64,000 bases of DNA from Limnohabitans sp. MORI2 (GTDB lineage Bacteria > Pseudomonadota > Gammaproteobacteria > Burkholderiales > Burkholderiaceae_C): assembly GCF_027925025.1 (NCBI RefSeq), contig NZ_AP027058.1:496001-560000 (forward strand), given 5' to 3'. Below, piece after piece: positions 68 to 23,402 of this stretch. Made by a program: the position numbers and the translations under genes. The notes beneath the pieces are model-generated. The model made no database searches, was not told the origin of the DNA, and saw only the letters and a program-made list of their open reading frames with translations. The number at the start of each line of letters is the position of its first letter. Position 1 is the stretch's first letter.

Positions 68-463
68 ATGGGAAATGAAATTCAACCGAAAGTACCTCAG
101 CCAGCGCTAGCTCGGCCTGAGGTGGCTGTCATGGCGATGGGCTCTAAAGCGCCTGTGGGTACAACGCCGTCTGAACATCCCAAAGACAAAGAAGTGCCAA
201 GCATTCCTAAGCCTGTCATCAAATTTGATGAAGAGCACGCACGCAAGAATTTAGAAGAGGCACTGCAAAAGCTCAATGACATGATGAAAGACAGCGGTCG
301 CATGTTGAGCTTCACGATGGACGTCAAGTTAGGTCGTCCCATCGTCTTCGTCAAAAACATGGCCAATGGCGAAGTGGTGCGCCAAATCCCCAATGAAGTG
401 GTGGTGCGTGTTGCACATGGCATTGAAGATTTCAAAGGCATGCTGCACAACGCGGCTGCTTAA
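68..463 (+). CDS. flaG: FlaG family flagellar protein
   Basis: A 131-residue protein of the FlaG family, which is associated with flagellin and filament-length control in polar flagella. The first ~45 residues are Pro/Ala-rich and disordered-looking. The conserved part runs from about residue 55 to the end, with a predicted amphipathic helix (LEEALQKLNDMM) followed by the beta-rich segment typical of FlaG (MDVKLGRPIVFVKN, RQIPNEVVVRV). An AAAGG lies 8 bases before the ATG. The reading frame stays open to the left edge of the window, so a longer N-terminus cannot be fully excluded, but the upstream residues do not look like FlaG. It precedes a flagellin gene in the same direction. Confidence 0.88.
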   Translation: MGNEIQPKVPQPALARPEVAVMAMGSKAPVGTTPSEHPKDKEVPSIPKPVIKFDEEHARKNLEEALQKLNDMMKDSGRMLSFTMDVKLGRPIVFVKNMANGEVVRQIPNEVVVRVAHGIEDFKGMLHNAAA

Positions 464-613: not shown

Positions 614-2746
614 ATGTCCGTTATCAACACCAACGTCAAAGCATTGACAGCGCAAGCATCTATGAGCAATGTCGAGAAATTGACTGCAACGACCATGGAG
701 CGTCTCTCCACAGGTCTGCGCATCAACAGCGCCAAAGACGACGCTGCTGGCCTTGCTATCACCAACCGCATGACATCGCAAATCCGTGGTTACGCAGTTG
801 CCATCCGCAACTCTAACGACGGTATCTCGATGGCTCAAACCGCTGAAGGCGCGATGGGTCAAGTCACCAACATGCTGCAACGCATGCGTGAACTGTCTGT
901 GCAAGCTGCTACCGGTTCTGTGAACGACCAAGACCGCGTGTCGATCCAACAAGAAGTGGATCAACTCAAGGCCGAAATCGACAACGTCGCGAACAAGACC
1001 AACCACAACAACATCAAGTTGTTGGACGGCAGCGCCGGCAAGATCGTCTTGCAAACTGGCACCAACGCCAACGACACCATGAACATCGCTTTCGGTTCTG
1101 TGAAGACCAAAGACATCGGTATGGGCTCACGTGCTTCGTTGTCTTCTGTGGCAACAAACTATGACGCTGCCTCCACTGCTGCGCCAGCATTGGCCGATGG
1201 CGACCTGATCTTGAACGGCGTGGTGGTCGGTGCCTCTTTGGCCACTGACGACACCAAGTCTTTCGACAGCAATGCCTCTAGCGCGATTTCTAAAGCTGCT
1301 GCTATCAACCGCGTGTCTGCCCAAAGCGGCGTGACAGCCACTGTCAACCAAACGACCGTTCACGGTAGCGTGATGACTGCGGCCGCAACAACTGGCATCA
1401 CAGTCAAGATCAACGGTGTAGATACCGCTGCATTCGCCACATCGGATGATGCAGAACTCTCACGTGCTTCAGTTGTGACAGCGATCAACAACATTTCCGG
1501 TCAAACGGGTGTGAAAGCAATCAACACACACGACGACAGCAAAGGCGTGGTGTTGGTGGCGGAAGATGGTCGCAACATCACCATCACAACAACCACATCC
1601 GAAGCTGTGACAGGTTTGGCTGTGACTGGTAAGACTTACGAAGGTACTTATGAGTTGAACACTCAAGATGGTCGTGCCATCAATGTGTCTAGCAATGTGT
1701 CAGGTACCTTGTCTAACTCTGGTTTGAACTTTGGCAGCTTCAAAGCCGATACAGCTCAAGCAGTGACATTGACACGCGCTGGCCACACTGGCACAGCAGG
1801 CCCAGTCAGCGGTGACGCAGCAGGCGCCTTGAAAGGCAACACCTTGGTGATCAACGGTGTGGGTATCGATGCAGCCAATGCCAACGACGATCAAGCGTCT
1901 GTGGATGAGTCTGTGGTTGGTTCCTCTTCTAAATCAGCTAGCGCGATTGCAATCGCTGCAGCGATCAACAAGAAAACTGGCATGACTGGCGTGACAGCAA
2001 CTGCTGAAGCCAACACATTGCGCGGTTCTAGCTTTACGGCTGGCGTGGTGACCAACGTCAACTTGAACGGTGTTGACATTGCCATGAATTTGGGCGCTGA
2101 TTCCAAGCGTGACGATGTCTTGAATGCCTTGAATGCTTACCAAGGTCAAACTGGTGTGGTGGCCACTGCATGGGGTGACGGCATTACCTTGACTGCAGCC
2201 GATGGTCGTAACATCACGATTGACGTGGCCGGTGCAGGCGGTGCTGATGCCTTGGGTCTGACAGGTGTGGATGTCGGTGCAGTCGGTGACGGCACAGCTG
2301 CTGTGGCTTACTACTCGACCGTGAAACTGTCATCTGACAAAGCTTTCTCAGTTGAGAGCGGTTCTGAAGGCAACGACAACTTTGCCAACCTCGGTTTCCG
2401 TCGCGGCACGTTCGGTGGCTCAGACAACGCCCTCAAGATTGCTGACTTGGACGTGACCTCACAAGCGGGTGCCACCGAAGCCTTGAAGGCCATCGATGCA
2501 GCACTGACCACTGTGGCTGCTGACCAAGCCCGTGCCGGTGCCTTCCAAAACCGTTTGGAAGCCGTGGTGTCTAACTTGACTGAGTCGAACCAAAACATGT
2601 CTGCTTCTCGCAGCCGTATCTTGGACACAGACTACGCGACAGAAACCACCAACATGGCGCGTAACCAGATCATTTCGCAAGCTGCCACAGCGATGTTGGC
2701 GCAAGCGAACCAATCTTCCCAGTCTGTCTTGTCGCTCTTGAAGTAA
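614..2746 (+). CDS. fliC: Flagellin 1 with expanded Flagellin_IN central region
   Basis: Filament subunit of 710 residues. The N-terminal D0/D1 region (about 1-165) begins MSVINTNVKALTAQ and carries the canonical LSTGLRINSAKDDAAGLAI segment. The C-terminal D1/D0 region (about 620-710) ends in QANQSSQSVLSLLK. The middle ~450 residues are Thr/Ser/Ala-rich and contain several Flagellin_IN-type repeats, recognisable by recurring NGV, AAAIN and SGQTGVKA/TGVTAT motifs and by two DGRNITI copies. Most enterobacterial flagellins are near 500 residues, so the variable domain is enlarged. The start is supported by AGGAG 8 bases before the ATG. A strong terminator follows at once, so the gene is probably monocistronic. 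Confidence 0.96.
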   Translation: MSVINTNVKALTAQASMSNVEKLTATTMERLSTGLRINSAKDDAAGLAITNRMTSQIRGYAVAIRNSNDGISMAQTAEGAMGQVTNMLQRMRELSVQAATGSVNDQDRVSIQQEVDQLKAEIDNVANKTNHNNIKLLDGSAGKIVLQTGTNANDTMNIAFGSVKTKDIGMGSRASLSSVATNYDAASTAAPALADGDLILNGVVVGASLATDDTKSFDSNASSAISKAAAINRVSAQSGVTATVNQTTVHGSVMTAAATTGITVKINGVDTAAFATSDDAELSRASVVTAINNISGQTGVKAINTHDDSKGVVLVAEDGRNITITTTTSEAVTGLAVTGKTYEGTYELNTQDGRAINVSSNVSGTLSNSGLNFGSFKADTAQAVTLTRAGHTGTAGPVSGDAAGALKGNTLVINGVGIDAANANDDQASVDESVVGSSSKSASAIAIAAAINKKTGMTGVTATAEANTLRGSSFTAGVVTNVNLNGVDIAMNLGADSKRDDVLNALNAYQGQTGVVATAWGDGITLTAADGRNITIDVAGAGGADALGLTGVDVGAVGDGTAAVAYYSTVKLSSDKAFSVESGSEGNDNFANLGFRRGTFGGSDNALKIADLDVTSQAGATEALKAIDAALTTVAADQARAGAFQNRLEAVVSNLTESNQNMSASRSRILDTDYATETTNMARNQIISQAATAMLAQANQSSQSVLSLLK

Positions 2747-2783: not shown

Positions 2784-2814
2784 AAAAAAAGCGAGCCCTG
2801 TGCTCGCTTTTTTT
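2784..2814 (+). terminator. Rho-independent terminator after flagellin 1
   Basis: A perfect inverted repeat (GCGAGC with GCTCGC around a CCTGT loop) is flanked by a run of seven A on the left and seven T on the right. The stem extends through the A/T runs, so it could work in both directions. Confidence 0.9.
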
Positions 2815-2829
2815 ATTTTCAAAATTCAC

Positions 2830-2856
2830 TAAAGCTCTGGCAACTCATGTCGATAT
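2830..2856 (+). promoter_or_regulatory. sigma28 (FliA) promoter of giant repeat protein 1
   Basis: TAAAGCTC, an 11-base spacer, then GTCGATAT. Against the classical TAAAGTTT-N11-GCCGATAA this matches 6 of 8 bases in each half with exact spacing. It lies between the flagellin terminator and the giant gene, with a leader of about 78 bases. This is the main evidence that the giant gene is a late flagellar gene. Confidence 0.75.
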
Positions 2857-2940: not shown

Positions 2941-5900
2941 ATGGCCAACACAATTAATAACTTTAGTAATCCAGCTGTCACATTCCGCAATGTCACGGCG
3001 CCCGCTAAAGTCACTGCCACCACAGACATTTCTTTGTACACGGCCGACCAGATCAAAGCTTTGACGGCAGGAGAGGTGGCAGGGTTGACAGAAGACCAGG
3101 TGTCTTCTGTTGGCATTTCCGCCATGTCGGGCTTTACGGTGAAACAGCTCTCAGTCATGTCCGCTGCCAATGTCGCGGCGATGAGTGATGCCCAAGTGGC
3201 CGCCTTGAGCAACACCCAGCTTTCGGGTTTTGGCGCAACGCAAATGGGGGCGTTGACCTCGTCACAAATCAATTCATTCACGACGTCACAGCTCACGGCG
3301 CTCAAAGGCAACCAAATTGCATCTCTCAAGGCGAACCAAATCGGTAAGGTCGATAACGCGCAACTGAGTGCACTGACTTCTAGCCAAATTCAAGCCTTGA
3401 CCACAGATCAAATTGTCAATTTGATCGCCGATCAGTTGGGTGCTTTGGGGACTTCACAGATTGCAAGCTTCAAAGATTCTCAAATCAAAGCCATTGAAAC
3501 ACGCGACATCAATGGGTTGACAACAGACCAAGTGGTGGCCATGAGCTTGAACCACATCAAGTCTCTGAGTACAGGGCAGTTGCGTGCCATGAGCACCGAT
3601 CAAATTCAAGCCATTGAGAGCAAGGACTTCGTGGCCATGAGCGCAGCTCAGTTGGACGCGTTCACCTCCACTCAGTTGGCAGGCTTGACCAGCGCGCAGC
3701 TCAACGCGATGACCGTCACACAACTGGCGTCCCTTGATGACACACAAATTCAATCTTTGACAACGGCTCAGATTGCCAATTTGAATACCACCCAAGTTAG
3801 CCGTCTGAAGGCCAGCCAGGTTAATGCGCTGAGCAGTGCGCAGTTGACAGCCCTGACCAGCACTCAGCTGAAAGCCTTGAGCGTTACGGCCTTAGAGACG
3901 TTGGACAGTACCGACATGACGTCGCTCACGACCACGGAAGTGGCCGCATTGACCACGGCTCAAATCAAAGGTTTGAGCTCTAACTTTGTGGCGGGTTTGA
4001 GCACATCACAAATCCGTAACTTGACAACCGATCAAGTTCAAAACCTGTCTGCCTCTGCTTTGTCGGCGTTCACTGAAACCCAAATTCAAGCATTGAGCAC
4101 CAACCAGATACAGGCCATCACCATTACTCAACTTAAAGGGTTGACCCCTGATAAGTTTGGGCAGCTCAGCACATCACAGGTTGAAAAACTGACCAATGAT
4201 CAAGTGAAAAATTTGAGCGCGGCTCAGCTGAAATCCTTTACGACAACAGGCATCTCTAAGCTAACTTCTAGTCAAGTTGGCGTTTTGACAGCCACCCAAG
4301 TCAAAGGTTTGAGCACTGCAGCGTTGGCTGCCTTGACAACCACACAAGCTCCTGGTTTAGTCGATGCGCAATTGAAAGTCTTGAGTGAGGCGCAATTGCA
4401 GGCCATGAATTCAAGCACCGTGGGTGCTTTGACCACCTCGCAAATCAAGGTGTTGTCAACATCGCAAGTCAAGTCGCTCACGACTGCCGCGACGGCAGCT
4501 TTGACATCGAGCCAAGTCAATGCGCTGAGTACCTCACAAATCAAAGCCTTGTCTGGTGATCAAATTGCGGCGCTGTCTACCACGGCCATGCATAACCTCA
4601 GTACGACCAATTTGGCTGCGCTAACTACCGCACAAGTACAAGCCCTCACCACAACAGGTATTGGTCAGCTCGACACAACGCAGGTGAGAAAACTATCGAC
4701 GGACCAGCTCAAAGCAATGACGACCACGGCGTTGGCGTCCATGAGCGTTGTACAGTTAGGAGCCCTGACCACAGCGCAAGTGAAAGGGCTGACCGCTGAG
4801 GGCTTGAACGCTTTGAATTCCACCAAGCTGCAGGCTTTGGATACCAATCAAATTGCGGCACTGACGACAACCCAAGTCAATAGTTTGTCGAGTTCACAAA
4901 TTGCAGCACTGAGCTCCGATCAGGTTGCGGCCTTGACAACCGCCCAAATTACGGGGCTTGAGGCTTCTGACTTCGCAGCCATGACAACGGCTCAGGTTCA
5001 TGCGCTGACGACCGATCAGTTGGCTGCTATGGCAACGGATGACATCGCAGCTTTGAACTCTGCGCAAGTTGTTGCCATGAGCTCAACGCAACTTCGCGCT
5101 TTGAGTTTGGCCCACGTCAAAGCCTTGGCAGCTGATGAAATTGCAGGCTTGAATTCGACCCAGTTGCAGGCCTTGACCACCAACCAAGTGAAAGCCTTGT
5201 CGACCGAAGACATGGCAGCATTGAAAACTTCACAGATTGAAAAACTGACGACAGACCAAGTGGCTGTCATTTCAGCCGCCAACATTGCCGCATTGAGCAC
5301 CGCGCAAGTGGCGAAATTTGACACCAATCAAGTGGGAGCTCTGTCTAATGGTGCCGTAGGTGCCTTGACTGCTGGTCATGTGGATGCGTTGGCTGCCAAA
5401 GTGGCCAAGTTGGATACAACACAAATTCGCTACCTCAACACCTCTGCTGTTGCTTCGTTAGACACCACACAGATGGCCGCGTTGAGCACAGCACAAGTCA
5501 AAGCTTTGACGGTTGATCAAATCGCCTCGTTGACAACGACTGCAGCAGGCAGTTTGTCTACCAACCAATTGGCTGAGCTCGGGACCGATCAAATCAACGC
5601 CTTGACTGCCGATAGCATCAAGGCTCTGGGAACCAAAGTTGCTAACTTCTCCACCTCGCAAATCAAAGGTGTGAGCACAGCGGCGATTGCCAACTTAACC
5701 AGTACACAAACTCAGGCGTTGACCACCAGCTTGATGGCGGCACTGACGACAGATCAAATCAGCGCATTCTCGACTGCGAATGTGCGTGCGATGGACACCA
5801 ACCAAATCCAGACCTTGAGCAAAGACCAAGTTTTGGCATTGGGTAGTGCACAGTTGCAAGCGTTGACAACATCACAAGTGGCCAAGATCAACACAGATCG

Positions 5901-8900
5901 CGTGGCTGCGATGCGTACTTCGCAACTGCAAGCGTTGGGGACCAGCGCCCTGGCTGGCATGACCACAGATCAGGTGGCCGCATTGACAACCGCACAGGTG
6001 GCTAGCTTGTCGACGGGGGCAGTGGCAGGACTTAACACCAATCAAGTGAACCACTTGACCAGCACTCAAGTGGCTGCGCTGAGTACCGATCAAGTACGTG
6101 CCATGGAAACTGCGGATGTGGCTGTTTTGAGTAGCACACAACTTGGTGCTCTGACCACGGCTCAGGTTGCCAGTTTGGCAACTGATCAGGTGGCTGCACT
6201 GAACTCTTCTGAGGTTGCAGGTTTGACCACAGCGAGTATGCGCACACTCAGCAGCAGTCAGCTGCAAGCCATGACGACTGCGGCGCTCAATGCACTGAAC
6301 TCGACACAAGTGGGTGGTTTGTCGACCAGCCAAATTCAGTTACTGACCACATCACAGGTGGCTGCATTGAATACAGCGGTTGTGCATGGGCTCAGCACCA
6401 CCTTGGTCAAGGCGATGGAGACTGCGGATGTTGCATCGCTGAATACAGACCAAATTACTGCGATGACTACCGATCAGGTGGTCGCCTTGACCACGGGGCA
6501 AATTCAATCGCTGACGACGGCGCAGTTGCAAGCTTTTGATCAAGCGAAGTTGCAAGCACTCAGCACAGCCCAAGTGGTGGCGTTGACGACCGATCAAGTG
6601 AAAGGTTTGACCACTACACAAGTGGGACAGCTGACGACAGACAGTGTCAAAGCGTTGACCACGGATCAAGTCTCTGCCTTGACCGAAGCGCAAATTGCTA
6701 AGCTCACCACCAACAGCATTGCTGAATTGCGTACGGCACAAATAGCAGCCCTGAGCACCGCACAAATTGCGGCCATGACGACTACCCAAGTGGCTCAATT
6801 GACCACAGCCAGCGCATCCACGCTGAGTGCTGAACAAGTGTTTGCGTTCACCACCGATCAAATCAAAAAATTGAGCACAAGTGCGACGGCAGCTCTGACT
6901 GTCACTAGTGTTGCTGCCATGGGGACTGGTCAATTGGCAGCATTGACCACTGATCAAATTCGTGCGCTCGAGACAGAAGACTTTGCCCGTTTGGATGATG
7001 CGCAAGTTGGGGCGCTGACCACAGCGCAAGTGGCGAAGCTAGAAGATGGTGACATTCAAGCCTTGGATGATCGCTTAGATAAATTCAGCACAAGCCAGGT
7101 GCAGGCGTTGACGACAGCGCATGTGGCGGTTCTGAGTTCTGACCAAGTCACTGGTTTCAGCACGGCACAACTCAATGCACTGTCCACTGAGCAATTGGTG
7201 AAAGTGTCTACATCAGCAGTGGCTCGTTTGACCACGACACAAGTTGCATCTCTGAGTTCCACCTTGCTACCAGCATTGACAACAACCCAAGTGGGTGCAA
7301 TGTCAACCAATGCGATTCGTGCCATTACTACTTCTCAAGTGACGGACTTGTTGGCGGCTCAAATCAACGCCATGACGACTTCTGGTGTCGCGAGCTTGAC
7401 CACTTCTCAGCTAGAGAAATTGAGCACCACACAGGTGGCTGGCTTGTCGAGCGACACAGTCAGGGCAATGACCACCACACAGTTGCAAGCATTCACCTCT
7501 ACGCAAGTAGCTAAGTTGGATACTTCGGTCATCGCGAACCTGAAGACCAGCCAAGTGACAGCACTCAAGACAGACCAAGTGGCTGCCTTGACAACAAACC
7601 AAGTGATCGCATTGACTACAACAGCTGTCTCTAAGTTTGACACGACACAGTTGACAGCACTGACCACCACACAAGTGCCCAAGCTTTCAAGTGATCAGGT
7701 GAAGAATTTGAGTACTGCCCAGGTGGCGGCTTTGACGACATCGCAGACCGCTGCTGTCAATACGGACGCAGTGGCGGCAATGTCTACTGCGCAAATCAAT
7801 GCCTTGACTACATCTCAAATTGCTGCGCTCAGTACCAACCAAGTGGTGGCATTGACCACCGAGCAGGTTGCTAGCATGAAGACTGAGCAAGTGGCAGCGT
7901 TGACCACCGATGGGGTGGTGGCGCTGGAGAATGCGGACATTGATGCTTTGACCACAAGTCAAGTTCGTGCGTTGACCACCTCACAAGTGTTGCAAGGCTT
8001 GTCTACCAGCGATGTGGCTCGCTTGACCACGACTCAGTTGGCAGCAATGCGCGGCAATCAAATCGCGGCGATGAGCACCGATCAAATTGCCAAGATGACC
8101 ACCGATCAAGTCAGCCATTTGACCTATGACCAAGTGGCGGCGTTGACGACATCGCAAGTGGCCAATATGGAAACAGCCGACATTGCCAAGTTGAGCGCAT
8201 CGCAAGCCGCAGCGCTTTCTACTGCGCAAATGCAGGCAATCACCACCACACAAATTGACAAGTTGGATACGTCTGTTGTTGCAGGTCTGACTAGCACGCA
8301 GCTTGCAGCCCTGAGCACCAGCCAAGTCGCGAAGTTCAGCACTGGGCAAATTGGTGCGTTGACCACCGCCCTGGTACGTGACTTGAGCACTGATCAAGTG
8401 GCAAACCTGACCACAGATCAATTACGTGCGCTAGACACAACACAGGTACAAGCGCTTGAAACCGCAGATTTGGCTGCGTTGAGTTCAACCAAAGTGAATG
8501 CTTTGAGCACTGGGCAAATTGGCGCGTTGACCACAGCACAAGCCGTGGCCTTGACCACCACGCAAATGGCTAATTTGTCGACTGGCAACTTGGCTGCTCT
8601 CAGCACTGCTGCTGTCAGTCAGTTGTTACAAGCACAAGTGGAAGCGCTGACATCAACGCAAATCAGCAAGCTCACAACTGGGCAAATCAAAGCGTTGACG
8701 ACGGGTAACGTGGCGGCATTGAGCACCACGCAAATTGCTGGCTTTGATACGACCAACCAGATTCAAGCGATCACCACAGCACAAGTGGCGGCCTTGTCGT
8801 CTGATCAAATTGTGGGCCTGAGCACTAACCAGATCCAAGTCATCAGCACGGCGCAGATCCAAGCGATGAATGTGGATCAAGTCTCCAAGTTGACAACGGG

Positions 8901-10242
8901 TCAAGTTGAGAAGCTCAATAGCTCACAATTACGTGCATTGAGCACCACAAATGTGGCTGGTTTGAGTTCTGACCAGGTCAACGCCCTGAGTTCAACGAAT
9001 TTGAACTTGCTGGAAACTGCACAAATAGCGGCCATCTCAGCAGCAGTGGTTGCTGCGTTGGATACGTCTAAGTTGGCTGCATTGAACACGACACAGATTG
9101 GAGCACTCTCTGCGGATCAGCTGAATGCCTTTACGACCGACGAAGTTGCTGCATTGACCACGGGGCAGATCAGAGCGCTGAGCTCATCGCAAATTCAAGC
9201 GTTGACCTCTAGCGGCGTTGCTGCATTGACCTCAGATCAAGTTCAAGCTTTGACCACCTCGCAAGTGGCGAATTTGACAAACAACACGGTGGCTTCGCTG
9301 ACGTCTGATCAAGTGAACTATTTGACAACCACACAAGTTCAGCATTTGTCTGATCCAGTGATTGCAGCCTTGAATACGACCCAAGTCTCTAACTTGGATA
9401 CTGCGCTGCTGCATGCGTTGACCACAACACAAGTTCGTGCATTGACCTCCACTTCTGTGACGAATTTGAGTACGGACCAAGTGGTGGCGTTGCGTACAGA
9501 CCAAATCGCTGCCTTGGATGTGGTGGATGTCACAGCCATGTCTACTGATCAGGTTGGCGCACTGACCACAGATCAAGTGGCCGCCTTGACCTTTGCTATG
9601 GTCAAAGCCATCAGCACAGATCAAGTGACTGCCTTGACCACCAGTATCAATGCCATGACTCAAATCAAGGCATTGACATCGGCTCAGACAGCGGCGTTGA
9701 CAACGGATCAGGTAGCTGCATTGACGACTTCTCAAGTCCAAGATTTGACGACTGTCTCTGCACAAGCCTTGACCACGGACCAAGTGGCTGCTTTGACGAC
9801 CGATCAAATCACTAAGCTGAGTACAACAAATATCAGGGCTATGTCTGATACGCAGTTGACGGCGTTGACCTCTGATCAGGTGGCCAAACTGACAGTTGAT
9901 CAAATCAAAGCTTTGGAGGGGGCAGATATTGCAGCCTTCGCAACGGATGAGATTGCTGCTTTGTCGACTGATCAAATGCGCGCCCTGACGACTGCGTTGG
10001 TTGCAGCTTTGACGACCGATCAAGTGGCGATCATCGATACAACTCAGTTGCGAAGCTTGACTTCAACTCAGGTGAGAGCCTTGACGACCGACCAAGTGAC
10101 AAACTTGACGACCGATCAAGTCAGCAGTTTGACGACTTCACAGTTGGCATCACTGACTAGCGCTCAGGTAGGGGCTTTGACAACGACGCAGATTAGTTCG
10201 TTGACTGCAACTCAGCTGTACGGTTTGATTAGTAGGGCTTGA
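2941..10242 (+). CDS. Giant octapeptide-repeat protein 1 (2433 aa), flagellar-regulon surface protein candidate
   Basis: I do not recognise a named family. The first 33 residues are non-repetitive (MANTINNFSN... ending TTDISLY) with no Sec signal, lipobox or membrane segment. The remaining 2400 residues form about 300 tandem degenerate units of eight residues, consensus [TS]T[DSAT]Q[VIL]xA[LM], continuing to the last residues. Hydrophobic residues sit at unit positions 5 and 8, Thr/Ser at 1-2 and Gln at 4. Occasional units replace Gln with Asp and are acidic (ETRDINGL, ESKDFVAM). Cys and Trp are absent from the stretches I read. A few units are 7 or 9 residues long. The ATG at 2941 is preferred over an upstream GTG because AAAGAG lies 6 bases before it and the N-terminus aligns with the paralogue at 23401-29541. 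A sigma28 site precedes it. Export through the flagellar or a type I route is conjecture. The Thr/Ser density makes it a possible target of the adjacent O-glycosyltransferases. Confidence 0.85.
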   Translation: MANTINNFSNPAVTFRNVTAPAKVTATTDISLYTADQIKALTAGEVAGLTEDQVSSVGISAMSGFTVKQLSVMSAANVAAMSDAQVAALSNTQLSGFGATQMGALTSSQINSFTTSQLTALKGNQIASLKANQIGKVDNAQLSALTSSQIQALTTDQIVNLIADQLGALGTSQIASFKDSQIKAIETRDINGLTTDQVVAMSLNHIKSLSTGQLRAMSTDQIQAIESKDFVAMSAAQLDAFTSTQLAGLTSAQLNAMTVTQLASLDDTQIQSLTTAQIANLNTTQVSRLKASQVNALSSAQLTALTSTQLKALSVTALETLDSTDMTSLTTTEVAALTTAQIKGLSSNFVAGLSTSQIRNLTTDQVQNLSASALSAFTETQIQALSTNQIQAITITQLKGLTPDKFGQLSTSQVEKLTNDQVKNLSAAQLKSFTTTGISKLTSSQVGVLTATQVKGLSTAALAALTTTQAPGLVDAQLKVLSEAQLQAMNSSTVGALTTSQIKVLSTSQVKSLTTAATAALTSSQVNALSTSQIKALSGDQIAALSTTAMHNLSTTNLAALTTAQVQALTTTGIGQLDTTQVRKLSTDQLKAMTTTALASMSVVQLGALTTAQVKGLTAEGLNALNSTKLQALDTNQIAALTTTQVNSLSSSQIAALSSDQVAALTTAQITGLEASDFAAMTTAQVHALTTDQLAAMATDDIAALNSAQVVAMSSTQLRALSLAHVKALAADEIAGLNSTQLQALTTNQVKALSTEDMAALKTSQIEKLTTDQVAVISAANIAALSTAQVAKFDTNQVGALSNGAVGALTAGHVDALAAKVAKLDTTQIRYLNTSAVASLDTTQMAALSTAQVKALTVDQIASLTTTAAGSLSTNQLAELGTDQINALTADSIKALGTKVANFSTSQIKGVSTAAIANLTSTQTQALTTSLMAALTTDQISAFSTANVRAMDTNQIQTLSKDQVLALGSAQLQALTTSQVAKINTDRVAAMRTSQLQALGTSALAGMTTDQVAALTTAQVASLSTGAVAGLNTNQVNHLTSTQVAALSTDQVRAMETADVAVLSSTQLGALTTAQVASLATDQVAALNSSEVAGLTTASMRTLSSSQLQAMTTAALNALNSTQVGGLSTSQIQLLTTSQVAALNTAVVHGLSTTLVKAMETADVASLNTDQITAMTTDQVVALTTGQIQSLTTAQLQAFDQAKLQALSTAQVVALTTDQVKGLTTTQVGQLTTDSVKALTTDQVSALTEAQIAKLTTNSIAELRTAQIAALSTAQIAAMTTTQVAQLTTASASTLSAEQVFAFTTDQIKKLSTSATAALTVTSVAAMGTGQLAALTTDQIRALETEDFARLDDAQVGALTTAQVAKLEDGDIQALDDRLDKFSTSQVQALTTAHVAVLSSDQVTGFSTAQLNALSTEQLVKVSTSAVARLTTTQVASLSSTLLPALTTTQVGAMSTNAIRAITTSQVTDLLAAQINAMTTSGVASLTTSQLEKLSTTQVAGLSSDTVRAMTTTQLQAFTSTQVAKLDTSVIANLKTSQVTALKTDQVAALTTNQVIALTTTAVSKFDTTQLTALTTTQVPKLSSDQVKNLSTAQVAALTTSQTAAVNTDAVAAMSTAQINALTTSQIAALSTNQVVALTTEQVASMKTEQVAALTTDGVVALENADIDALTTSQVRALTTSQVLQGLSTSDVARLTTTQLAAMRGNQIAAMSTDQIAKMTTDQVSHLTYDQVAALTTSQVANMETADIAKLSASQAAALSTAQMQAITTTQIDKLDTSVVAGLTSTQLAALSTSQVAKFSTGQIGALTTALVRDLSTDQVANLTTDQLRALDTTQVQALETADLAALSSTKVNALSTGQIGALTTAQAVALTTTQMANLSTGNLAALSTAAVSQLLQAQVEALTSTQISKLTTGQIKALTTGNVAALSTTQIAGFDTTNQIQAITTAQVAALSSDQIVGLSTNQIQVISTAQIQAMNVDQVSKLTTGQVEKLNSSQLRALSTTNVAGLSSDQVNALSSTNLNLLETAQIAAISAAVVAALDTSKLAALNTTQIGALSADQLNAFTTDEVAALTTGQIRALSSSQIQALTSSGVAALTSDQVQALTTSQVANLTNNTVASLTSDQVNYLTTTQVQHLSDPVIAALNTTQVSNLDTALLHALTTTQVRALTSTSVTNLSTDQVVALRTDQIAALDVVDVTAMSTDQVGALTTDQVAALTFAMVKAISTDQVTALTTSINAMTQIKALTSAQTAALTTDQVAALTTSQVQDLTTVSAQALTTDQVAALTTDQITKLSTTNIRAMSDTQLTALTSDQVAKLTVDQIKALEGADIAAFATDEIAALSTDQMRALTTALVAALTTDQVAIIDTTQLRSLTSTQVRALTTDQVTNLTTDQVSSLTTSQLASLTSAQVGALTTTQISSLTATQLYGLISRA
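3040..10239 (+). repeat. Tandem 24-bp coding repeat array (about 300 units)
   Basis: Each unit encodes one octapeptide (typical: TTDQVAAL). At DNA level the units are strongly diverged with mixed synonymous codons (accacc, acgacg, acaacc for the Thr pair; gatcaa, gaccaa, gatcag for Asp-Gln). The array therefore looks old and maintained by protein-level selection rather than by recent slippage. Confidence 0.9.
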
Positions 10243-10284: not shown

Positions 10285-11013
10285 TCAGCATAGTAGTTCT
10301 CGATTGAATAGAAATATGTTTTCGCCTTTATGAACAAAGTCGAATTCATATTGAGCGATAGCCTTAAAGAAGTTTTTAGATGATCCTGAGAACGGAAGCA
10401 TCCAGTCGTGCAGTTCGATGATTAACAGTGGGAACTCTCGCATCCAAGATGTGTCACCTTCAAACAAACTCTCTTCACCTCCTTCGATGTCAATTTTGAA
10501 CATCATAGGTTTCATGTGTTTAGTTTTTTGAAGGATGGTTTTCGGTGAAATCGCAGAAACTTTCACGCTTTCAGAGTTCGCCTGATCCTTTTTGCGTGTC
10601 CTAAACCCCCAGTCTGAATGTCCAGGATCCTCTAGATAAAGGTCACCATCTTGTCCAGCAATCGCTCCGTGGAAAATATGAACAGCTTCGTACGGCTGAG
10701 TGTTCAAGGTTAGAAGGCTTACATTCTCACGATCTGGTTCAATCGCATAAACATATGAGTTGTTGTAAATTTCTAAAAAATAGACAGCTGATGCACCTAT
10801 GTTTGCGCCAGCATCAATGATCAGACCTTGCTGATTTTGCGTGTGCTCATGGAAGTACTCCACAAAACGTTTTCCTTGGGGCCAATGAGCAATGTTGTAG
10901 TCTGAGTTTTGAAAAATTTGTTTAACGACGCCCTTGTCTCCAAGGCTTTGATTTCGGTATGAGAACCTAATGGGCTTATTTCCAAAACTAACTTCTAGCG
11001 CGGCAAGTTTCAT
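10285..11013 (-). CDS. FkbM family SAM-dependent methyltransferase
   Basis: A 242-residue FkbM-type methyltransferase; the family commonly O-methylates sugars or other hydroxyls. Visible signatures are the SAM-binding loop IIDAGANIGASAVYF (around residue 65), the acidic AIEPD after strand 2, and the family hallmark FKIDIEGGE. It is the last gene of a seven-gene minus-strand operon of glycosyltransferases, separated from the next by 18 bases. It probably methylates a glycan built by those enzymes. The DNA is visibly richer in A/T than the flagellar genes around the island, suggesting separate acquisition. Confidence 0.85.
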   Translation of the reverse strand: MKLAALEVSFGNKPIRFSYRNQSLGDKGVVKQIFQNSDYNIAHWPQGKRFVEYFHEHTQNQQGLIIDAGANIGASAVYFLEIYNNSYVYAIEPDRENVSLLTLNTQPYEAVHIFHGAIAGQDGDLYLEDPGHSDWGFRTRKKDQANSESVKVSAISPKTILQKTKHMKPMMFKIDIEGGEESLFEGDTSWMREFPLLIIELHDWMLPFSGSSKNFFKAIAQYEFDFVHKGENIFLFNRELLC

Positions 11014-11031
11014 AGTATTTATTTTTGTAAA

Positions 11032-11700
11032 TTAAGCTGATGTATGGGTGTAGTCAATGTCAGTTTTTTCAATGTCGCTGTAGGAAGGAATTTGAGCGCC
11101 TAACATGGGTGTGGTGCAGTACCAATTGTCCGTGCGTTGTAGCTTTTTCCATGTTTGGTCGATTGCAAATTTGTGATAAATCACACTTCGTGGAGAAGCT
11201 GCTCTGAATTTTTCCATTCCAATGATCGAGTCCATGCAGTTAATCATCAACTGTTTTACATACCGACGTCGCACGATATAGCCTGAAGTTGTGGCAGATT
11301 CAAATACTTGATTCACTTTATACATCCCGATTTCGGCGTTGGTAGGCATTGGAACCAACTTTGTTCCACCTAGTAAAAATACATCGAGATCAGAAAATTT
11401 CTTTAGTGTGTAGTCAATCGTTTGCTCGGTAGTTTCTCTTGTGTCGCGAAAGTTGAAGTCATCCTCAAAGATGCAGCACCATTCATTCTCAGTTTCCGTC
11501 ATAAATTTAGTCATGGCGAGCAAATGCGACTTGGCGCATCCTAAGCCTCCAAAATCTTGATCTTCGATTGCACGAATCCACTCAAATGTATTGAGTGCAA
11601 AGCCTTGCGTATCAGTGTTGGCAACAAACAGTGCTCGACGATCCTCGCGTGCATCTAAACTGATAAGGTAGCAACTAGCATTTGTGAAGCTAAAAGTCAT
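11032..11700 (-). CDS. Glycosyltransferase family 25 protein
   Basis: A 222-residue GT25-like enzyme (the LPS glycosyltransferase / procollagen galactosyltransferase fold family). It starts with the typical first strand SCYLISLDAREDRR, and has GGLGCAKSHL and the metal-binding CIFEDDF motif at about residues 75-85. The ATG at 11700 is chosen over an upstream TTG because GGAAA lies 6 bases before it. It follows the next GT25 gene by 13 bases and is co-directional. The A/T content is high. The donor and acceptor cannot be read from sequence. Confidence 0.78.
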   Translation of the reverse strand: MTFSFTNASCYLISLDAREDRRALFVANTDTQGFALNTFEWIRAIEDQDFGGLGCAKSHLLAMTKFMTETENEWCCIFEDDFNFRDTRETTEQTIDYTLKKFSDLDVFLLGGTKLVPMPTNAEIGMYKVNQVFESATTSGYIVRRRYVKQLMINCMDSIIGMEKFRAASPRSVIYHKFAIDQTWKKLQRTDNWYCTTPMLGAQIPSYSDIEKTDIDYTHTSA

Positions 11701-11713
11701 GATGATTTCCAAT

Positions 11714-12532
11714 TTATTTCTGAATAAAACTTTGCGAAAACGTGCCGCTTAATATCGTAGAAAATGCCTTAGCTTCATCGGTAAAGTCGCCTTCTCGTAT
11801 TAGGGTTAAATTTTTCTCTATGTGATCCGACTTCCCACCCATCCAAATAAGTTTTCTAAATGAATGCCACACCAGTTCCGTATAGGCATGCTCTTTTGTT
11901 TGGATGTTTGAGTCTTCAGATTCAGATGAAAGTGAAGTTAAGAATGGGAACGCTACAAAAGCTTTGAGTTTCCTAGTCTGAACCAATGCACGGTACGTCA
12001 GGTCAATTGGTGTATCTAGTTGTTGCATGGCATTCAACATCGATGCAACTTTGCTGATGGAATTTTTGTTAACAATGTACGCTGCGGTACTGGCAAAGTT
12101 CATTTCGCAAAGATCGAGAATGCGCAGTTGATCATTTTTAAGGCAGCTTTGTTTGAGTTGAAATAAATCCAACATGGTTGCTGCATTCGGTACGCAGATG
12201 TCCGTATAGAGCAGGTCCCATTCGAACTCTGGAGTAGTAATAATTTTTTCAATAACGGTTTGCGTTTTGTTGCAAAGCACGATGTCATCTTCAACAATAA
12301 ACAGATGGTCTTTGTTATTGATGTTTTGATTCATCAACTCGCGATGACTTAAGAAGCAGCCCTTTGCGCCGTTGGAGAGTTGCCCTTGAATGTTGTTTGC
12401 TTCAACATACTTTTTGTCAAGAGCTTCAAACCGATGAAGTGGCCAGTTCAGAGTGTTGTGTTGAGCAAAGTTTTTCTCGAGCTGAGCACGCTTTTCTGTT
12501 TCAGATGCGAGGTTGATGTAGTAGCAGTCCAT
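11714..12532 (-). CDS. Glycosyltransferase family 25 protein
   Basis: A 272-residue GT25 enzyme, a diverged paralogue of its downstream neighbour. It opens with CYYINLASETEKRAQL. GAKGCFLSHRELM matches the GT25 GxxGCxxSH motif, and LFIVEDDIVL carries the metal/donor-binding acidic triad. The C-terminal third is less conserved. It lies 7 bases after the fucosyltransferase-like gene in the same operon. Two GT25 genes in tandem suggest successive sugar additions to one glycan. The A/T-rich composition is shared with its neighbour. Confidence 0.82.
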   Translation of the reverse strand: MDCYYINLASETEKRAQLEKNFAQHNTLNWPLHRFEALDKKYVEANNIQGQLSNGAKGCFLSHRELMNQNINNKDHLFIVEDDIVLCNKTQTVIEKIITTPEFEWDLLYTDICVPNAATMLDLFQLKQSCLKNDQLRILDLCEMNFASTAAYIVNKNSISKVASMLNAMQQLDTPIDLTYRALVQTRKLKAFVAFPFLTSLSSESEDSNIQTKEHAYTELVWHSFRKLIWMGGKSDHIEKNLTLIREGDFTDEAKAFSTILSGTFSQSFIQK

Positions 12533-12539
12533 AGGGGTC

Positions 12540-13700
12540 TCACATTTGCAAGATCAAACGATCTGAGTAGTGCATGATCTCGTTGCCAAGTAAGAAGCTA
12601 AACCCGTTTGGCCAGCGTTTCATATTGGCAATGGCAAGCGATACGTTGGATTCTTTGTTGCCAATGAAGTAATCGCATTTCAACGCAATCAGCGCATCAA
12701 TCAACACCTCTTGTCCAGCTTTGTGGCCATCGTTCGTAGACAGATGTACGCCAATTTGCGAGCTGGTTCTTTCTGATGGTGTGAAGAGGACACGCTCACC
12801 GTATTTGATTTGGAAGTACTCCAAAATTTGCACAGCATCGGTCATTAAAAAGATGCCAATGCCAGGGTTGAGCTCCAGCATGCGATCTATGAATCCAAAG
12901 TAATGTGCATTGGTTTTTTGCAAGCCTGGTGATTCATGAATCTTGTCAGAGCCGCGCATGTGCACGGCTATCCAGTTGCGCTGAGCCATGTGGCGCTGGT
13001 AGAAGTCATCTGCTTTGGCTTGCATGGCATCGGTCGGTTGGATGAATTTTTCAAACAAGAGTTTGTAAATGTCATCTTCAGACAGGCCAAAGTAACAAGA
13101 CTTTTCTGAAATCCAAGGCTTGATGGAAGTGAGTGATGTATAAAAATCACTCACCAAAATAGGTTCTGTGCGACTCAAAAAATATTGAGCGGATTGCTTG
13201 GAGTATTCACCAGAAAATATTTGTCTATTTTCTGTATAGATGTTTTGGCCATGCCACTTCGGCGGATAAATGCCGTCTTCAGTGCACAACTTTTCTAAGT
13301 CTGGATTCTCGAAGCCTTGAAAAAACTCGCTGATGCTGTTGCGTGTGTTTTCAAGCCTGAAAATGCAGTTCGTTCCCCAAAGCGGAATTGGCGTGCGATG
13401 CGTTAATTCCGCCACCAACAGTTGTGACAGAAGGTGATGGACTTCACTCCAAAATCCATGCCCCCAAGCTTTGATGATCAGATATTTTCCGGGATCAACG
13501 GATGCATGAGGTAGTTCACAGGCGCGAAAGTTTTCTGGAAAACCGTACGCCATTTCGAACTCGCGCTCAATCTGCTGTTTGTAGTCCACATCCTCAGGAT
13601 GTGCCGCCAAGTATTCACGCGCATAGATCTCTGCCAAGGGCGCATTGCCTTGGCGGATGATGTTCTGAATTTCAATTTTTCGGGCGATGACGTCAGACAT
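12540..13700 (-). CDS. Putative fucosyltransferase-like (NodZ/O-FucT superfamily) protein
   Basis: A 386-residue protein. The C-terminal half carries IAVHMRGSDK, matching the H-x-R-x-(G/T)-D-K donor-binding motif of NodZ/FUT8-type and related fucosyltransferases. Later come IFLMTDA and YFIGNKESNVSLAI, which fit the other conserved segments of that superfamily. The N-terminal 60 residues are helical and resemble a TPR-like start (APLAEIYAREYLAAHPED). No signal peptide or membrane helix is seen, so it probably acts in the cytoplasm. It sits between the GT41 and GT25 genes with 7- and 11-base gaps. The assignment is by motif only; a GT-B enzyme with another sugar is possible. Confidence 0.6.
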   Translation of the reverse strand: MSDVIARKIEIQNIIRQGNAPLAEIYAREYLAAHPEDVDYKQQIEREFEMAYGFPENFRACELPHASVDPGKYLIIKAWGHGFWSEVHHLLSQLLVAELTHRTPIPLWGTNCIFRLENTRNSISEFFQGFENPDLEKLCTEDGIYPPKWHGQNIYTENRQIFSGEYSKQSAQYFLSRTEPILVSDFYTSLTSIKPWISEKSCYFGLSEDDIYKLLFEKFIQPTDAMQAKADDFYQRHMAQRNWIAVHMRGSDKIHESPGLQKTNAHYFGFIDRMLELNPGIGIFLMTDAVQILEYFQIKYGERVLFTPSERTSSQIGVHLSTNDGHKAGQEVLIDALIALKCDYFIGNKESNVSLAIANMKRWPNGFSFLLGNEIMHYSDRLILQM

Positions 13701-13711
13701 GGTCGAACAAA

Positions 13712-15949
13712 TTAAATTTCAAGCAGCAAAGCCTCAAGCGCCCGTGCCTGATGTGCAGGTGTATGTGGCCACTCTTGGCGGTCCAAAATGCCTTGCAGCT
13801 TGCGCTTGGCTGCTTCGCGTTCGTCAGCATGGGTTGCCAAGCGCAATGCCTTGTCGTGGTATTCCTCAAAGCTGGTGCAGGTGAGCTCGCTCATGCCGAT
13901 GTCGTGCAGCAGGCTGGCGGCCACTCGCGAAGAGAAGCTCCCGCCACACAACGTCACAACTGGCAAGCCTGAACGCAAGGCATCACCCGCCGTGGTGTGG
14001 CCGTTGTAGGGGTAGGTGTCAATGAAGACATCGGCCAAGCGATAGCGTGCCAAGTGGTCTTCGACGCGTGGGAGACGTGAAGCAAAAATGATGCGTTCAG
14101 GATCGATGCCATGATCACGTGCACTTTGTGCCAAATTTTTGTGAGCACCTTCGTTGAGTTTCATCAACCACAGCACGCTTCCTGGGACTTCTTTTAATAA
14201 ATCCATCCAAACTTTGAACAGAGGCGGATTGATTTTGTAGTCGTGGTTGAAGCTGCAAAACACAATGCCTTCGTCTGGTAAACCAAAGTCAGATCGTTTG
14301 GGAGTGTCAGGTGATGGCACCACCGTATCGTCACGCGGTAAGTAGCAATGCGGCAGGGTGAGAATTTTTTCTTGATAGTGCTTTTCAAACTCAGGCGGAA
14401 TGATGCGCGGGTCAGAAATCAAATAATCAATGTATGGCAAGCCCAAGGTGCCTGGAAAACCTAGATAGGTGACTTGGGTTGGCGCAGGGCGATACGCCAA
14501 GATGTCGAGACGAGTGCCTTCGGTGTGACCCGACAGCTCGACCACCACATCAATTTCCATCGCCCGCATGAGTTTGGCCACCTCAATGCTAGGCATGGTG
14601 TTGCAGTCGATGTAATGGTCGAAAGCGCATCGGTAACGACGCCACAAATCGCTGTCGTCGCCAACGCCCGTAAAGAAGCCTGTTAATTCAAATTTACTCT
14701 TGTCAAACTGCTCAATCAGGCCAATCAGCAAATAGCCGACGGGATGAATGCGGAAATCGGCCGACATGAATGCGACACGTTTTTTGCGATGTTGGTATTT
14801 TTCACCGGTCCACAAAGGTGTTGAAGAGGCTTTGTATTTGTCAGCTGCATACAACTCAGCACATTTGCGAATGGTGGCTGCATCATCCGTGATAGACATG
14901 ATGGTCAGCGGGCCGCAGGTGAGTTTGCCGGCATGAATGCCTGCGATGATGCGGGCTTTGGCTCCCTCGAAGTCGGTCCAGTCACAATTGCTCATGCGAG
15001 CACCCATCAGATGCCCTTCGCCATAGGCATAGTCAGGTGCAACTTGTAATGCGTGAGCAAACGCACGCGTGGCCAATGTGTATTGCTTGTACTGACCCAA
15101 CAATTGGCCTTGGCCTTCTAAGGCGCGCACATGGTTGGGTTCAATCTCTGTCGCAGCTGTCAAAGTCAACAGTGCATCGTGGTGACGGTTGATGCCTTGC
15201 AACAACGCGGCTTTGTTGGTGTAGGCCTCCATGTAGTGGGGGTCGACATCAATCGCTTGGTCGTACGCAACGATGGCATCTTCCGCCAGGCCTAAGTCAT
15301 GCAAGGTCTTGGCTTTGGCGAAAAAGCCAAGCGGCAAATGTGGTGCCGCTTGTGTGGCGCGATCAAAGTAGCCCAAGGCTTCTTTGGTTTTTCCGAGGTG
15401 AGAGCACGACACACCCAGCGAATACAGCGTCATGAAGTTGTTGCTGTCAATGGCCAATGCTTGTTGCAAAAGGGCTTCTGCTTGTGCATGTTGTCCAGTG
15501 CCTTGCAGTCCGATGGCTTGCGAGTTGAGTGCAGCTGCTTCAGGGTTGCTGCTGCTCATTGGGTTGGTGCCATTTTGAGAGAGTCGCAACGTTTCCAAAT
15601 GAGCCTGCGCGCCCGTGAGGCGCGGGTCCAGCTTGAGAGATTTGTTGACGGCCTGAGTCGCTTCTGGGATGCGATTCAAGTGATACAAAATCACCGACAG
15701 CGCGAGATGTGCCTGCGCAAAGTTAGGCGATGCCTTGACCGCTTTTTGCATATGTGGGAGCGCTTGCTCATATCGACCACGGCTCGACTCAATCGCTCCT
15801 AGCGAATAAAGCGCAGCTGCATTCTTCGCATCGAGCTTGAGTGCTTGTTCAAACAACGTTTGCGCGGCGTCTAACTCGCCTGCATGTTGGTGTGCAAGAG
15901 CCTCATTGATGAGGGTCTGAATCGATTTTTTTGGCGCTTTGGTAGTCAT
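13712..15949 (-). CDS. TPR-containing O-GlcNAc-transferase-like (GT41) protein 1
   Basis: A 745-residue cytoplasmic enzyme candidate that would add a sugar to Ser/Thr of proteins. The N-terminal ~330 residues are TPRs (for example ALYSLGAIESSRGRYEQAL, NFAQAHLALSVIL). The C-terminal ~370 residues are a GT41 catalytic domain: SADFRIHPVGYL with the key His, GHTEGTRLDILAYRPAP, CSFNHDYKINP with the UDP-contacting Lys, and DTYPYNGHTTAGDAL with the HTT donor loop. All key elements seen in eukaryotic OGT are intact. The start at 15949 is preferred: the alternative at 15991 overlaps the upstream gene, and the TPRs begin after 15949. It is the best candidate for the flagellin or giant-repeat-protein O-glycosyltransferase. 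Confidence 0.88.
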   Translation of the reverse strand: MTTKAPKKSIQTLINEALAHQHAGELDAAQTLFEQALKLDAKNAAALYSLGAIESSRGRYEQALPHMQKAVKASPNFAQAHLALSVILYHLNRIPEATQAVNKSLKLDPRLTGAQAHLETLRLSQNGTNPMSSSNPEAAALNSQAIGLQGTGQHAQAEALLQQALAIDSNNFMTLYSLGVSCSHLGKTKEALGYFDRATQAAPHLPLGFFAKAKTLHDLGLAEDAIVAYDQAIDVDPHYMEAYTNKAALLQGINRHHDALLTLTAATEIEPNHVRALEGQGQLLGQYKQYTLATRAFAHALQVAPDYAYGEGHLMGARMSNCDWTDFEGAKARIIAGIHAGKLTCGPLTIMSITDDAATIRKCAELYAADKYKASSTPLWTGEKYQHRKKRVAFMSADFRIHPVGYLLIGLIEQFDKSKFELTGFFTGVGDDSDLWRRYRCAFDHYIDCNTMPSIEVAKLMRAMEIDVVVELSGHTEGTRLDILAYRPAPTQVTYLGFPGTLGLPYIDYLISDPRIIPPEFEKHYQEKILTLPHCYLPRDDTVVPSPDTPKRSDFGLPDEGIVFCSFNHDYKINPPLFKVWMDLLKEVPGSVLWLMKLNEGAHKNLAQSARDHGIDPERIIFASRLPRVEDHLARYRLADVFIDTYPYNGHTTAGDALRSGLPVVTLCGGSFSSRVAASLLHDIGMSELTCTSFEEYHDKALRLATHADEREAAKRKLQGILDRQEWPHTPAHQARALEALLLEI

Positions 15950-15968
15950 ATGCGGTGTTTCGCTTTGG

Positions 15969-16763
15969 TTATACCCAGTCAATCGGCACATGCTGGCCGG
16001 CTGAGGCTAAAAGTTGTTGACGTTTCACACGTAAATCGAGGTTAGGTGCAGGCCATTTTTTGTAGATAGACAAGTAATCCGTCACAGTTTGCATGCCATT
16101 GCTTTGGCTGTTCCCGCCACGACGGTCGTGCTGGTTGACATAGTCTTTGTAGACCATGGCGCCGGTGATGTTGGCGTGCACAAAGGGGGTGTCGCTGGCA
16201 ACGTTGAGCAAAAAGTCCCAGTCGTCCAAGCTTGAAAGGTGGGGGTCTTGCAACCGACCATGCACAGCCTCACGGGGAAAAATTACGCTGTGATTCAGGA
16301 TGAAATTCTTGACGTACAACGCGTTGAAGTCAGCATTTGCTACTGAGAAGGCTTGCCCTGGTTGAGGGGGGAGGTCTGGTTGAGAGCGATCTTCTTGAAT
16401 GACGCAGTAGTTGGTGTAAATCACCGAGCCTGGGTTATCCAAGGTTGTCAAAAAAGCACGTTCTAAATAATCAATGCTGAACGCATCATCATCATCTAAG
16501 AAGATCACGTATTTCCCACGCGCCATGGAAAGACCTACGTTTCGACTCAGTGCAGGCCCAAGTTTGCCGATTCGTTTGCAAAAACTGTCTTGCTCACGCA
16601 GGTTTTGGCTGATCACATGCATGGTGGCTGCATCCACTGTGTCAGCCACCACAATCATTTCGTGATCTGTGAAGGTATTGGCGCAGACCGATTGCATGGC
16701 ACGCGCAAGCAACCGTGGTCGCTCATGCGTTGCGATGATGATGCTGAAATAAGGCGGCTTCAT
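15969..16763 (-). CDS. Glycosyltransferase family 2 protein
   Basis: A 264-residue GT-A glycosyltransferase. The classic start FSIIIATHERPRLLARAMQSV is followed by the metal-binding FLDDDDAF at about residue 85 and by LSSLDDWDFLL, the acceptor-side ED/DD motif. The start at 16763 gives an ATGA overlap with the stop of the upstream TPR-GT9 gene, implying translational coupling; the longer reading inside that gene is not needed. No membrane segments. It probably extends the glycan. Confidence 0.85.
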   Translation of the reverse strand: MKPPYFSIIIATHERPRLLARAMQSVCANTFTDHEMIVVADTVDAATMHVISQNLREQDSFCKRIGKLGPALSRNVGLSMARGKYVIFLDDDDAFSIDYLERAFLTTLDNPGSVIYTNYCVIQEDRSQPDLPPQPGQAFSVANADFNALYVKNFILNHSVIFPREAVHGRLQDPHLSSLDDWDFLLNVASDTPFVHANITGAMVYKDYVNQHDRRGGNSQSNGMQTVTDYLSIYKKWPAPNLDLRVKRQQLLASAGQHVPIDWV

Positions 16764-18265: not shown

Positions 18266-18308
18266 GACTGTTTTTTTGACACTGAAAACCATAAAACAAT
18301 GGCTGATA

Positions 18309-18324
18309 CGCAATATGTAAGCCA
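18309..18324 (-). promoter_or_regulatory. Candidate sigma54 promoter of the glycosyltransferase operon
   Basis: Read on the minus strand: TGGCTTACATATTGCG, with the invariant GG and GC exactly ten bases apart and TGGC plus TTGC cores. The middle ACG is not conserved. It predicts a transcript start near 18297, about 30 bases before the chosen start codon. It diverges from the plus-strand sigma54 site 47 bases away. Confidence 0.55.
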
Positions 18325-18370
18325 AGTTTTTCCGTCAGCTGAGGGTGTCAAGTAAAGCGGCAAAGCTAGT

Positions 18371-18921: not shown

Positions 18922-18946
18922 AGTTTTGCCATGGCTTGCCATTTTT

Positions 18947-20781: not shown

Positions 20782-20833
20782 TTTGAGTTGCTGCGTGTCA
20801 CTTTCGGTTTCCTTCACATCTGGTTTGTCCCCC

Positions 20834-23368: not shown

Positions 23369-23402
23369 AAACAAAAGTCGATGAATTCGGCTTTTGTTTT
23401 TT
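23369..23402. terminator. Bidirectional terminator between protease and giant repeat gene 2
   Basis: AACAAAAG-T-CGA pairs with TTCG-G-CTTTTGTT, twelve pairs with one G-T, with T-runs on both strands. It separates convergent genes. Confidence 0.8.

Follow-up and report, generated by a model that had tools for sequence, protein, structure and literature searches.

The window analysed here, 64,000 nucleotides from the genome of the freshwater bacterium Limnohabitans sp. MORI2 (NZ_AP027058.1, positions 496,001 to 560,000), encodes a giant octapeptide-repeat protein, ALT1, which by sequence is a member of the Pfam ALTTAQ family (PF20080). The full combination proposed for ALT1, that of a sigma28-controlled, O-glycosylated, extracellular alpha-solenoid, in which glycosylation, export and location are what we infer from neighbouring genes and from relatives, has in our judgement an even chance of being correct. 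The gene is found among flagellar genes and close to a paralog, ALT2:

68..463, + strand: FlaG (Pfam)
614..2746, + strand: flagellin 1, 710 aa (Pfam)
2784..2814, + strand: terminator-like hairpin, then U-rich sequence, between the flagellin gene and the ALT1 promoter (folding -16.6 kcal/mol, z -4.9)
2830..2856, + strand: sigma28-like promoter of ALT1, TAAAGCTC-N11-GTCGATAT (motif scan; 10/12 core positions, score 12/16)
2941..10242, + strand: ALT1, 2,433-aa ALTTAQ octapeptide-repeat protein (ORF translation, PF20080 match, model of residues 1-320)
20783..23353, + strand: serralysin-related metalloprotease, below the NCBIfam cut-off, adjoining ALT2 (profile match)
23401..29541, - strand: ALT2, 2,046-aa paralog, 42% identical to the N-terminal 340 aa of ALT1 (profile search, alignment)
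29832..33830, + strand: second flagellin, large (about 1,332 aa) and oriented divergently to ALT2 (identified by its terminal sequences)

The large flagellin is about twice the length of flagellin 1 and lies a few genes before genes read as fliE, fliF and fliG.

ALT1 extends from an ATG at 2941 to a stop codon at 10242 and, beyond about 30 N-terminal residues, is composed of octapeptide units with the consensus [TS]-[TS]-x-Q-[VIL]-x-A-L. Self-identity of the protein is 0.336 at a lag of 8 residues versus 0.045-0.106 at lags 1 to 7, and multiples of 8 are the only lags that rise above the rest. Decoding returned 297 octamers, two of which (residues 17-24 and 25-32) are marginal, giving an array of about 295 units and confirming the roughly 300 degenerate octapeptides read from this ORF at the outset. 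Glutamine at position 4 and leucine at position 8 are conserved in 204 and 229 of the 297 units, respectively, and 292 of the units have distinct sequences, so the array has not been recently homogenised. The decoder met eight irregular places: an unscored octamer at residue 58 with the register kept, three 7-residue units (residues 818, 897 and 1376) and gains of 1, 1, 1 and 5 residues. Cysteine is absent from ALT1, as it is from all four ALTTAQ proteins of the genome.

The match of ALT1 to PF20080 reaches 1452.3 bits across 87 stretches (gathering cut-off, 26.4 bits), with no difference from the family in anything compared; the Pfam entry names no function. A sequence search of the PDB returned HeliScrew4 (9zem), a solved octapeptide-repeat protein, with an E-value of 1.3e-16 over 112 residues, a figure whose significance is inflated by the repeats, and leucine-rich-repeat proteins far behind. 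The sequence-only reading had held that the unit belonged to no described family, which fails because PF20080 exists and 9zem matches by sequence. HeliScrew4 shares eight-residue units (LTPEQIAAL type) with ALT1, a likeness of sequence, but is 120 aa long and often carries Pro-Glu where ALT1 carries Thr-x, and 9zem was absent among the matches listed in the structural comparison for the ALT1 model. Neither the name ALTTAQ nor HeliScrew was met in the literature searched, and the papers containing the string PF20080 were unrelated by title.

An AlphaFold2 model of residues 1-320 (pLDDT 92.1, pTM 0.80; five models, 90.6-92.1) contains one short helix per unit, mostly spanning unit positions 2 to 6 or 7, with Thr-1 near the helix N-cap, and no beta-strand of the kind a beta-solenoid adhesin would be built from. 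The prediction supports the earlier suggestion of short stacked helices with a threonine N-cap over a beta-solenoid. Each unit would thus be a single short helix that has Thr/Ser-1 as its cap and in which V/I/L-5 and L-8 are assumed to be buried, and the whole protein would be a very long, thin, cysteine-free alpha-solenoid, as predicted for residues 1-320 and extended by sequence to the rest. Helical superhelices of the armadillo/importin and mesothelin types, unlike ALT1, are built from longer, multi-helical units. The HEAT unit has about 40 residues (PMC11514114). A one-helix octapeptide would be an unusually small solenoid unit, and of interest for protein design.

For comparisons across the family, 71 loci were kept out of 409 encoding stretches detected in a single scan of named genomes, and a second set of 14 regions from nine genomes of the order and class was reached through PF20080. 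All family counts refer to related sequences rather than independent events. The family is uncommon, occurring in five of 150 genomes of the order and six of 370 of the class (the window genome counted in both) and, at E-values up to 0.001, in one of 14 control genomes, Caulobacter vibrioides. Genome content was compared between 42 ALTTAQ genomes, 32 of them picked from the 71 loci, and 37 others, these being genomes that happened to stand among the matches listed in the order and class scans.

The sigma28-type promoter proposed at 2830-2856 holds up: a site is present there, beginning 111 bases upstream of the start codon, and the motif recurs before the genes of beta- and gammaproteobacterial relatives and was unseen in the Alphaproteobacteria. 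In scoring against the sigma28 consensus, a site of at least 12/16 precedes 27 of 40 beta/gammaproteobacterial ALTTAQ genes; among flanking genes the figure is 10 of 301, and among shuffles 17 of 800. In the Alphaproteobacteria the same score was reached by none of 19 ALTTAQ genes versus 4 of 203 flanking genes. For this comparison the 71 loci were sorted by organism name into 37 beta/gamma, 21 alpha and 13 set aside (L016, L022, L034, L040, L041, L044, L050, L066, L067, L074, L075, L077 and L080), and ORFs were excluded if they were open at the 5' end, lacked a start, or had upstream DNA that was short, masked or duplicated. Set-aside loci with a start scored 9.5 (L041), 8.5 (L067), 8 (L074), 7.5 (L016) and 7 (L080) on a cruder 12-point scale. 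Five of the nine scorable starts in the second set reach 12; five further ORFs went unscored, three for an open 5' end and two because no start was found. Within the genome, scores out of 16 were 13.5 for ALT3 and 12 for ALT4, but 10.5 for ALT2, 10 for flagellin 1 and 11 for the large flagellin; the want of a good site before ALT2 and the low score of flagellin 1 speak against the reading. With the hairpin at 2784-2814 ahead of its promoter, ALT1 probably forms a separate transcription unit; a terminator scan listed no terminator at these positions.

The sigma factor itself, FliA, is encoded in the window genome (G000:C1:468578-469228), in 35 of the 42 ALTTAQ genomes and in 25 of the 37 without ALTTAQ; the seven FliA-less ALTTAQ genomes belong to Nitrospirillum (four loci) and Rhizobium (three loci) and are the alphaproteobacterial ones among those tested. 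All 10 genomes not picked by their likeness to ALT1, the window genome included, encode FliA (Fisher p 0.046). At locus L083, GT41 and ALTTAQ genes on one strand adjoin fliA on the other, the other neighbours being read as flagellar genes from their translations, and a flagellin gene occurs in the flanking DNA of 8 of the 71 loci. With an upstream motif and a FliA-encoding genome both found, ALT1 has the sequence hallmarks of the sigma28 regulon, and the promoter comparison suggests that FliA (sigma28) would drive it from a dedicated promoter, as one of the late genes of the flagellar regulon.

Between ALT1 and ALT2, among other glycosyltransferases and a methyltransferase, sit two GT41 genes:

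10285..13700, - strand: four genes, FkbM methyltransferase, two GT25 and an O-FucT match under Pfam's cut-off (Pfam)
13712..15991, - strand: TPR-GT41 (OGT-type) glycosyltransferase, candidate modifier (PF13844, 1.3e-71)
15969..16817, - strand: GT2 glycosyltransferase (Pfam)
16760..18325, - strand: TPR protein with a glycosyltransferase-9 match under Pfam's cut-off (Pfam)
18926..20722, + strand: second TPR-GT41 glycosyltransferase, candidate modifier (PF13844, 8e-72)

The genome holds two further GT41 genes outside this pair, and all 29 aligned GT41 proteins, the two from the window among them, share SxDxxxH, presumably the OGT catalytic histidine region. Of the 53 ALTTAQ ORFs that are closed at the 3' end and followed by 2.5 kb of DNA, 27 have a co-directional GT41 as one of the two genes that come after them, versus 4 of 402 other flanking genes, and 26 do not. 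GT41 was present in all 42 ALTTAQ genomes versus 13 of the 37 others, in all 10 genomes not picked by ALT1 likeness (window included; Fisher p 0.0002) and in two of the 14 controls (C. vibrioides and Synechococcus elongatus). In the second set, several regions of which end at contig ends, GT41 occurs in 4 of 14 (L083, L084, L088 and L095), directly downstream only in L095. Among 95 of 168 neighbours of the relatives, a mixed collection, GT2, epimerase and FkbM were among the commonest families. As a point against modification by GT41, a crude count that includes out-of-phase octamers showed no difference in the Thr/Ser share of the units between genes adjoining GT41 and the rest. This gene neighbourhood and genome co-occurrence of ALTTAQ and GT41, as read from sequence, are new here and suggest that a cytoplasmic OGT-type GT41, encoded just downstream in half of the relatives counted and in the same island in the window, would O-glycosylate the many Thr/Ser of ALT1. 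To our knowledge, few substrates of bacterial OGT-type enzymes have been described, and a giant Thr/Ser-rich protein encoded next to GT41 would be an obvious candidate.

The best-placed alternative, which we nonetheless regard as unlikely, is that ALT1 belongs to the flagellar regulon and is extracellular or surface-located but carries no glycans, the GT41 enzymes modifying flagellins or other proteins and the adjacency reflecting shared flagellar islands. The window enzymes could serve its two flagellins instead of ALT1, given that flagellins and glycosylation island occur together here, and GT41 lies directly downstream in just 1 of the 14 second-set regions. Caulobacter FlmG is a precedent for TPR-type cytoplasmic flagellin O-glycosyltransferases (PMC7591256); the role proposed for GT41 would be analogous, with a TPR-bearing enzyme modifying a flagellar protein before export, but the substrate of FlmG is flagellin whereas here it would be the solenoid ALT1. 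Against an exclusive role on flagellins, GT41 is directly downstream of ALTTAQ genes in loci, for example Rhizobium L051 and L071, Uliginosibacterium L053, and Pseudomonas L032 and L033, whose covered DNA holds no relative of flagellin 1; for some of these loci that DNA is short on one side.

The O-glycosylated solenoid would act outside the cell, a placement that draws on modules fused to relatives. One ALTTAQ protein (L066, 115-6075) begins with a filamentous-hemagglutinin-type TPS secretion domain followed by the repeats and another (L017) ends in RTX repeats, while EF-hand-like motifs occur in the tails of relatives from Scleromatobacter (L027, two genes), Duganella (L058) and a Burkholderiales MAG (L025), above the cut-off in one L027 tail only. 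A combined profile of the tails from ten loci, seven of them from Pseudomonas, matches the self-processing module of FrpC (6sjw, E 9e-51), which belongs to type-I-secreted RTX proteins (PMC7078468, PMC5233953). The module is C-terminal in these ten relatives and absent from ALT1, and at the position of the cleaved Asp-Pro of FrpC the relatives appear to have Ser-Pro (Thr-Pro in L038), by reading of the alignment start. The TPS, RTX and FrpC-like fusions indicate that the repeat is used extracellularly in at least some members, and from them we infer an extracellular place for ALT1 itself. Homologs of the serralysin-related protease also lie beside ALTTAQ genes in L013 (the ALT2 ortholog), L014 and L015; the window protease has 856 aa, the first 450 or so of which match nothing.

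Pfam searches of ALT1 found no Flagellin_N or Flagellin_C domain (E up to 1), no RTX nonapeptide repeats, no TPS domain and no recognisable export domain, and no signal peptide was visible on inspection by eye. Among the 25 commonest of 99 matched neighbour families, drawn from 95 of 168 neighbours, there was no exporter family. The initial proposal of a late flagellar secreted product is supported in its timing by the promoter comparison and, for secretion, indirectly by the extracellular modules of some relatives. GT41 enzymes are taken to be cytoplasmic. Together with the missing export domain and with several relatives whose repeats start at about residue 8 and come to within some 15 residues of the end (for example L020, L026 and L053), their location would suit a cytoplasmic scaffold or substrate sink organising glycosyltransferases or flagellar assembly; this alternative ranks next and is improbable, with the fused TPS, RTX and FrpC-like modules, the lack of cysteine in four of four paralogs and the neighbouring serralysin-type protease gene all speaking against it. 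As an extracellular protein, ALT1 would be an extended glycoprotein of the swimming cell, in the form of a coat or adhesive fibre associated with the surface or the flagellum; export by the flagellar type III system is a guess.

The genome, one contig of 2.65 Mb, has four ALTTAQ genes, with ALT3 (about 586 aa) near 1.343 Mb and ALT4 (1,454 aa) near 2.218 Mb in addition to the window pair. In ALT4 (L011, 5252-9616) the units are themselves arranged in a higher-order repeat, 17 units long (identity 0.30 at lag 136); this pattern, which ALT1 does not show, suggests that blocks were duplicated. A large repetitive protein, surface-type by eye (L010, 24-4499) and possibly starting outside the locus, converges on the 3' end of ALT3, and ALT2 matches PHROG 15773 (unknown function; E 3.5e-43), suggesting that phages may carry related repeats.

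Relative to orthologs in the closest named relative, Limnohabitans sp. Jir61 (L012 for ALT1), ALT1 aligns over 2,434 columns, 4 of them with gaps (2,433 versus 2,431 aa), at pN 0.253 and pS 0.745 (saturated), and ALT2 has 2,046 aa in both with zero gaps, pN 0.156 and pS 0.756 (saturated). Flagellin 1 and its L012 counterpart differ less (pN 0.062, pS 0.491), the sequence comparison indicating that the repeat genes evolve faster. Gln-4 is identical between orthologs in 85% of 265 ALT1 units and 98% of 214 ALT2 units fitting a pattern. The near-gapless alignments, saturated synonymous sites and Gln-4 identity show that selection maintains the pattern and, within this lineage, the array length as well. 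A molecular ruler or tape, in which unit number sets a length, would account for ortholog pairs differing by only 2 of 2,433 and 0 of 2,046 residues at such synonymous divergence, but is very improbable given the lengths of close relatives: four Pseudomonas ORFs with both ends closed measure, from stop to stop, 5,212, 5,237, 5,322 and 5,413 aa, and two from Nitrospirillum 3,117 and 3,477 aa. Length is not fixed across the family. Functionless runaway expansion, suggested by the repetitive, low-complexity composition of ALT1, deserves next to no credence because the Jir61 comparison contradicts slippage, with pN well below pS, alignments nearly gap-free and Gln-4 retained, and because promoters and partner genes recur across relatives.

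Beyond the window, it is a tentative proposal, somewhat more likely wrong than right, that ALTTAQ and GT41 together make up a flagellum-linked glycoprotein system, widespread but so far unrecognised, in which giant O-glycosylated alpha-solenoids of one-helix octapeptides, sigma28-timed in the Beta- and Gammaproteobacteria and recurring in the Alphaproteobacteria and Riflebacteria, would be placed on or around the swimming cell. For the ALTTAQ family this would provide a first testable function: expression with the flagellum, GT41 as the modifier and a place outside the cell.
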